In this document: positions 20,238 to 20,551 of the stretch, piece after piece
Numbering within the stretch: position 1 is the stretch's first letter
Layout of the letters: every line of letters starts with the position of its first letter
Assembly: GCA_900299035.1 (NCBI GenBank)
Contig: OMIG01000259.1
Coordinates: 1-36,163, forward strand
DNA length: 36,163 bases
Source: Pseudomonadota bacterium
Lineage (GTDB): Bacteria; Bdellovibrionota_C; UBA2361; OMII01
Direction: 5' to 3'
The notes under the pieces: generated by a model
Databases searched by the model: none
Told to the model about the DNA's origin: nothing
Seen by the model: only the letters and a program-made list of their open reading frames with translations
Program-made: the position numbers and the translations under genes

Positions 20238-20314
20238 GCGCTCGTAGCTCAGTTGGATAGAGCACAAGTTTCCTAAACTTGGGGTCGGGAGTTCAATCCT
20301 CTCCGAGCGCGCCA
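20238..20314 (+). tRNA. tRNA-Arg, anticodon CCU
   Basis: GCGCTCG-TA-GCTC-AGTTGGATA-GAGC-A-CAAGT-TTCCTAA-ACTTG-GGGTC-GGGAG-TTCAATC-CTCTC-CGAGCGC-G-CCA; 7-bp acceptor stem; CCA encoded. Confidence 0.96.
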
Positions 20315-20349
20315 CTAAACTCGACGGCAGCGATGGAGCCTCACCGCGC
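20286..20349 (+). repeat. Copy 1 of a 64-bp perfect direct repeat (tRNA-Arg 3' 29 nt plus 35 bp flank)
   Basis: Identical to 20457-20520, offset exactly 171 bp. Confidence 0.95.
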
Positions 20350-20485
20350 TCGGGAGGGAGGACTCCCGAGAGAACGTCTTGCGATGCGAGCTAGCGAGCA
20401 TCGCGCCCGTCCTGCCCCTCGCGGGAGCGAGGGGATAGCAGACGGGGAAGGGGAGCCGGGAGTTCAATCCTCTCCGAGCGCGCCA
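20346..20485 (+). other. Putative tRNA-like chimeric unit: acceptor stem, T-arm and CCA with the D/anticodon-arm region replaced by a ~107-nt multi-hairpin insert
   Basis: 5' GCGCTCG (20346-20352) is the same 7-mer as the tRNA-Arg 5' acceptor strand and complements CGAGCGC at 20475-20481; T-arm and GCCA copied from the tRNA; no D-arm or anticodon arm between. Confidence 0.4.
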
Positions 20486-20520
20486 CTAAACTCGACGGCA
20501 GCGATGGAGCCTCACCGCGC
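20457..20520 (+). repeat. Copy 2 of the 64-bp direct repeat
   Basis: cgggagttcaatcctctccgagcgcgccactaaactcgacggcagcgatggagcctcaccgcgc identical to 20286-20349. Confidence 0.95.
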
Positions 20521-20551
20521 GCGCCACTATTCACCACGACAATTTCGCCCG

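Follow-up and report, generated by a model that had tools for sequence, protein, structure and literature searches.

The tRNA-Arg(CCU) locus

The window (the whole 36,163-nt stretch of DNA analysed here) carries a gene for tRNA-Arg(CCU) that is directly followed by a 171-nt unit (Table 1). The parts of the unit stand in a fixed order: an inverted 3' half of the tRNA, a tandem-GA hairpin, a second hairpin, a direct 3' half with CCA, and the trailer. The locus contains an exact 64-nt direct repeat (20286–20349 = 20457–20520, period 171), which is far above chance and spans the trailer together with the tRNA tail, not the tail alone. A preliminary description of this DNA had placed the heptamer GCGCTCG 31 nt past the CCA of the tRNA and had counted 140 nt from there to the end of a second T-arm, acceptor 3' strand, discriminator G and CCA. 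Both observations are correct: the heptamer starts at 20346, and the second CCA ends at 20485 and belongs to the 64-nt repeat.

Table 1. Features of the tRNA-Arg(CCU) locus, with positions counted from the first base of the window.
Feature	Positions	Strand	Evidence or remark
Host gene, tRNA-Arg(CCU), CCA encoded	20238..20314	+	ARAGORN; Rfam tRNA 64.6 bits
Full unit of probable RtT type, 171 nt, from the first base past the tRNA CCA to the second CCA	20315..20485	+	Direct-repeat period 171
Trailer, first copy	20315..20344	+	Strong palindrome in sister species, degenerate in the window
Inverted arm, reverse complement of T-arm and acceptor 3' strand; includes GCGCTCG	20345..20369	+	Local alignment score 14; 1 of 2000 shuffles as high
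Tandem-GA hairpin, 7-bp covarying stem, loop CGAGCTAGCGAG	20380..20405	+	R3 match, 41.3 bits
Second hairpin, conserved 3'-side bulge ahead of AGCAG	20406..20447	+	Consensus fold, covariation
Direct copy of the tRNA 3' half: T-arm, acceptor 3' strand, discriminator G, CCA	20457..20485	+	Exact repeat
Trailer, second copy; stops where an inverted arm would start (truncated next unit)	20486..20520	+	Exact repeat ends at 20520
Third occurrence of GCGCGCCACTA (acceptor end and CCA)	20519..20529	+	Sequence; compare the empty site in G011

The third occurrence of GCGCGCCACTA is, to judge by its sequence, probably the original end of the tRNA-Arg(CCU) gene; at the matching position, the element-free genome G011 reads GCGCGCCACTATCAAGC. 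A 142-nt stretch of the locus has a folding z-score of -5.5 relative to dinucleotide shuffles, and the inverted and direct halves are predicted to pair as a long stem closing a junction that would display both hairpins.

An inverted arm matching the host tRNA

The heptamer GCGCTCG looked like the start of a tRNA because the 5' acceptor strand of a tRNA is the reverse complement of its 3' acceptor strand. The preliminary description had allowed that it might be a chance 7-mer. This alternative falls away because GCGCTCG continues into a reverse-complemented, degenerate copy of the entire T-arm and acceptor (CGCGCTCGG-GAGG-GAGGACTCCCGA compared to CGCGCTCGGAGAGGATTGAACTCCCGA), and this copy nevertheless outscores 1999 of 2000 shuffles. 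The inverted copy also covers the T-arm, a region that would not be self-complementary in a tRNA. Since the 5' arm is an inverted T-arm and acceptor, it would pair through the T-arm and leave no tRNA-like T-hairpin. The arm is about 25 nt long; it is almost perfect in G002 and G003 (CTCGGAGAGGATTGAACTCCCGAG), two sister species, and partly altered in G007 and G009. Sister species often have a degenerate direct tail yet retain the inverted arm and tandem-GA hairpin. Over 82 tRNA loci, inverted-arm scores are bimodal, with a background of at most 10 and carriers at 13 or higher.

A conserved and covarying interior

On the 3' side of the inverted arm, the elements have GAGTGATC-like letters, a hairpin of variable stem with the loop CGAGC[CT][AG]GCGAG, and a second hairpin. 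The invariant tandem-GA loop of the first hairpin is CGAGCYRGCGAG, which reads C-GA-G-NNNN-C-GA-G and thus has the form of a symmetric tandem-GA internal loop. Among eight elements, 12 of 24 base pairs show changes on both sides, with a covariation score of 0.256 (0.113 in shuffled alignments, and no higher than 0.086 when slid). The tandem-GA stem, compared in 13 hairpins from many loci, has double changes at seven of nine pairs and a covariation score of 0.689, against 0.222 when shuffled; part of this set was gathered with structure-aware searches, and its pairing percentage is therefore biased upward. The stem types (TGCGATG, AAATCG, AAAACG, CTTGATG, CAAACA, CAAATTT and AAAAATG) are clearly distinct ways of building a single structure. 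Conservation and covariation of the arm and hairpins show that the unit is not merely a duplication of the tRNA 3' tail, which the preliminary description had named as part of its alternative.

Distribution within the genus

We searched for the unit as a whole with model R2 and for the tandem-GA hairpin with model R3. R2 matched the unit in 9 of the 12 genomes of this uncultured genus (E ≤ 0.01). The unit follows tRNA-Arg(CCU) in G000, G002, G003, G007, G008 and G009 (in G003 and G008 the contig starts inside the element, and the tRNA-Arg(CCU) locus was recognised by neighbouring genes), and it follows tRNA-Met(CAU) in G001, G002, G005, G007 and G008, where its arms are those of the adjacent tRNA. 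The order of parts is identical in at least five sister species at tRNA-Arg(CCU) and in five at tRNA-Met(CAU). Tandem units in the genus measure 153–171 bp, and G005 has three of 167 bp in tandem after tRNA-Met(CAU), within a 74-kb contig. No remnant of a D-arm or anticodon arm was found in any downstream copy across the genus, and tRNA-Arg stands without the element in G010, G011, G001 and G006. Many of the elements are located at contig ends, as expected of repeats in MAG assemblies.

The preliminary description had proposed looking for the architecture after other tRNAs of the same genome. Among the tRNAs examined in the window's own genome, a downstream inverted arm is found only at tRNA-Arg(CCU) and at one tRNA-Met(CAU), where the contig ends inside the arm. 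R1 and the pattern GTGATCN10GCGAG were set aside; their matches are confined to the genus. A contig scan returned seven records, one of which (L069) is a chance match inside a gene.

Two further loci of the genus deserve mention. At a contig end in G006 (G006:C42; L055, 6100–6345), an RtT-type unit has arms (GGCAGGTTCGATCCCTGCCGAGCGC) whose parent tRNA was not found in that assembly, and the neighbouring gene was of no help. On the minus strand of G002:C2 (L095, approximately 3410–3110), two tandem 5'-half tRNA copies (GGCCCTATAGCTCAGTTGGTTAGAGCGGCCGCG) lie upstream of tRNA-Met, fused to hairpins ending in GAGCGCGCCATT, and are possibly a further variant of the upstream type.

Downstream and mirror-image forms at other tRNA genes

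By our count, R3 matched 18 of the 46 genomes of the phylum and 4 of about 337 genomes outside it at E ≤ 1e-4. Many of the strong matches within the phylum adjoin tRNA genes: those for tRNA-Arg, -Met, -Glu and -Asp in G013, tRNA-Arg and -Met in G012, tRNA-Val in several members of the genus, and tRNA-Asp in G035 and G036. We compared 23 pairings of a hairpin with a tRNA (one locus is counted twice). In 18 of these, a direct partial copy of the element's own tRNA scores above every control with another tRNA, and in 11 an inverted half scores at least 13 and above such controls.

Two arrangements can be distinguished. In the downstream form, the tRNA is followed by its inverted 3' half, hairpins and the direct 3' half; in the upstream form, which is its mirror image, a direct 5' half, hairpins and an inverted 5' half precede the tRNA. 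Mirror-image (upstream, 5'-half) or partial versions occur at genes for tRNA-Val, -Arg, -Met, -Asp and -Glu. Any arms that these elements possess are those of the adjacent tRNA and not of other tRNAs; a clear inverted arm is absent in some carriers, namely at tRNA-Glu, one tRNA-Asp and most tRNA-Val genes. One core with an identical tandem-GA hairpin stands at three tRNAs of G012, at each with the arms of that tRNA, and in G035 the tandem-GA hairpin occupies the variable-loop position of a tRNA-Asp copy.

Tandem-GA hairpins were also encountered in other settings. In G015 (L168, L187, L219, L220 and L221), a dispersed repeat made up of ACGTGCGGATAAGCGAGC..GAGCACGTAATNATTC and a tandem-GA hairpin is located away from tRNAs and resembles REP/BIME repeats. 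In G133, from another phylum (L211, 636–1105), a strong tandem-GA hairpin lies upstream of a tmRNA gene, at a distance of about 100 nt and on the other strand; after the hairpin comes GGCCCCGAAGGGGTGAGGTTGGAGCGAA, similar to part of E. coli RtT. Identical copies of a tandem-GA hairpin in G261 (L207–L210), just upstream of a transposase-like ORF (an IS, by eye), were set aside as probably unrelated. Finally, in G027 (L017, 1302–1480), tRNA-Arg(CCU) is followed by about 70 nt of hairpin sequence without the tandem-GA loop and then by a perfect 29-nt copy of the tail.

Shared architecture with E. coli RtT

RtT has been discussed in the literature for gammaproteobacteria, and the role of E. coli RtT, reportedly described in 1991 by Bosl and Kersten, is poorly understood. 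Rfam annotates RtT (RF00391, rttR) at E. coli tyrTV, proK and lysV. At tyrTV, the parts follow the same order as in the window: GGGGAAGGGTGAGAACCTTCGA, which is an inverted T-arm and acceptor with changed T-loop letters, then CGAGCGAAAGCGAG, GTTGCC..GGCAAC and the direct tail. At proK and lysV, a CGAG..CGAG motif is found together with a direct tail and an inverted tail of the locus's own tRNA (the inverted tail is GAGGATGAGAACCTCCG for proline and GATTCGAACCTGC for lysine). The tandem-GA motif is likewise present downstream of tyrT, tyrV, proK and lysV, and the periods of the E. coli RtT loci are 156–178 (168 at proK and 156 at lysV). Arm scores exceed their own controls at tyrT, tyrV and lysV; the proK arm scores 13.0, compared to 13.5 for its best control, and aligns at 15 of 17 positions in register. 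A separate observation concerns the spacers of E. coli argV-argY-argZ-argQ (L229), where RtT-like GGGAGGATAACGTTGC..GAGTAATCCTCCCGGATGCACCA occurs with direct and inverted tRNA-Arg tails and has no Rfam call.

Since the E. coli RtT loci share the order of parts, the tandem-GA hairpin and the period, we regard the window element as RtT-type, far outside Gammaproteobacteria. The RF00391 model (gathering threshold 45 bits) has no match in the window at E ≤ 5 and none at the sister loci L093, L094, L096 and L040 at E ≤ 10, while the E. coli controls score 47–137 bits; R2, in turn, finds nothing significant at E. coli RtT. Because RF00391 does not match here and our own models give no significant match to E. 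coli RtT, the label RtT-type refers to the architecture, the tandem-GA motif, the arm rule and the period, and not to membership in RF00391. With no model-level match in either direction, common descent with E. coli RtT is unproven, and it is possible that the likeness arose by convergence.

Interpretation of the element

We consider it likely that the window element is an RtT-type 171-bp unit downstream of tRNA-Arg(CCU), which is probably co-transcribed with the tRNA and would release a structured RNA. As a working form, we favour an RNA cut from the tRNA transcript over a DNA repeat that parasitises tRNA genes. The tRNA-Arg(CCU) transcript would read through into the unit, and the ordinary tRNA 3'-processing machinery would cut at each CCA, yielding a structured RNA of about 171 nt; at E. 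coli tyrT, RtT RNA is said to be cut from the tRNA transcript in this way. The inverted arm may sequester the spare tail, which would then neither compete with folding of the real tRNA nor be charged as a half-tRNA, and the tandem-GA hairpin would be the part that is recognised. The units expand in tandem, with arms that follow the tRNA hosting them. Co-transcription is not general, since a terminator-like hairpin (a GC-rich stem followed by a T run) separates the tRNA from the element at E. coli proK and lysV.

A rather unlikely alternative is that the unit is a mobile or self-amplifying DNA repeat, in which a small hairpin element integrates at tRNA genes, leaves the tRNA whole because it carries or duplicates half of it, and expands in tandem. 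Such an element would depend on its structure as folded single-stranded DNA, in the manner of attC or REP/IS200-type systems, with any RNA being incidental. Such a repeat would fit the patchy occurrence within the genus, with four genomes having a tRNA-Arg without the element, the identical tandem-GA hairpin at three different tRNAs of G012, the tandem arrays that break assemblies at contig ends and the dispersed copies in G015. It would also fit a direct repeat that includes the trailer and, in E. coli proK and lysV, even the terminator-like hairpin, as well as the presence of rtT-like sequences inside BIME repeats of enterobacteria (PMC2965389). However, no matches were found in plasmids, phages or viral contigs, and no transposase or integrase was found among the six neighbouring window proteins scanned. 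Almost every locus has a hairpin stem of its own, and the stems covary, which would not be expected of a freshly copied element; the elements in the genus (g1) follow the locus, conforming to vertical inheritance; and the arms vary by host tRNA, unlike fixed terminal repeats.

The preliminary description proposed a tRNA-like chimeric RNA, a tandem tRNA duplicate whose core was replaced and which could still be a substrate or ligand of RNase P, RNase Z, CCA enzyme or EF-Tu. Several parts of that proposal hold: the element is structured, ends in an acceptor and T-arm 3' half with CCA, is kept in relatives and has a 5' arm complementary to its tail (GCGCTCG with CGAGCGC), and the tRNA-Asp copy of G035 with its hairpin at the variable-loop position would suit a chimera. 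The duplicate with a replaced core is not supported, as the 5' arm is inverted through the T-arm, the predicted fold is a long duplex and not an acceptor with a T-hairpin, and no trace of the missing arms is left in the downstream copies of the genus. Moreover, ARAGORN and the Rfam tRNA model recognise no cloverleaf in the insert and find the host tRNA only, and the direct tail is often the part that has degenerated in sister species. We therefore deem this origin very improbable. Still less credence is due to a site-specific integration scar, in which attL and attR copies of the tRNA 3' end would flank what is left of a deleted island. Integration usually leaves a direct repeat of a tRNA 3' end behind, and tRNA-Arg, where the repeat is found here, is a common target. 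Nevertheless, this explanation is largely refuted, since sister species and other tRNAs share a structured, conserved sequence between the repeats; the inverted arm, the regular periods of 153–178 and the lack of an integrase among the six neighbours scanned argue against it as well.

More tentatively, RtT may belong, as a single branch, to a widespread and so far unrecognised class of elements that flank many tRNA genes, upstream or downstream, in several bacterial phyla. In this class, a tandem-GA core would take one direct and one inverted arm from the adjoining half of the tRNA and would move between tRNA genes, re-fitting its arms. If true, this would be a new kind of structure-defined element, tRNA-parasitic or tRNA-regulating. 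The occurrence of the same plan at several tRNAs of a distant lineage, where the arms vary with the tRNA and the tandem-GA hairpin remains constant, yields a rule for comparison (inverted half, tandem-GA hairpin, direct half) by which the function of RtT becomes testable. It also accounts for odd tRNA fragments next to tRNA genes, which might be taken for pseudogenes or scars of integration.

Comparison with known systems

Among known systems, YrlA bacterial Y RNA (RF02553) resembles the window element in being a structured RNA with a tRNA-like part. RF02553 has no match in the window and a weak one at a single sister locus (22.3 bits, E = 1.2, compared to a gathering score of 69), which overlaps the real tRNA. 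BIME and REP sequences are, similarly, hairpin-based intergenic repeats; rtT-like sequences occur in some enterobacterial BIMEs (PMC2965389), and the copies in G015 are dispersed. In contrast, the window's genome shows two tRNA loci only and no dispersed family, and the arms are tRNA-specific.

The closest counterpart is E. coli RtT, with which the window element shares tandem units after a tRNA, an inverted tail, a tandem-GA hairpin, further hairpins, a direct tail with CCA and a repeated trailer. In RtT RNA, a helix framing a tandem GA motif is supported by covariation (PMC7657543, PMC8250186), and in Actinobacillus, RtT members are located upstream of tRNA-Asn and tRNA-Lys (PMC4986893). The two differ in the loop, which is CGAGCYRGCGAG on a 7-bp stem in the window and CGAGCGNNAGCGAG on a short stem in E. 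coli RtT; in phylum and host tRNAs; and in the mirror-image 5'-half versions that relatives of the window's genome possess. The RtT arrangement itself is already known from E. coli; what appears from these sequences to be new, and was missed by the Rfam model, is its recurrence at many tRNA genes of a distant bacterial group.
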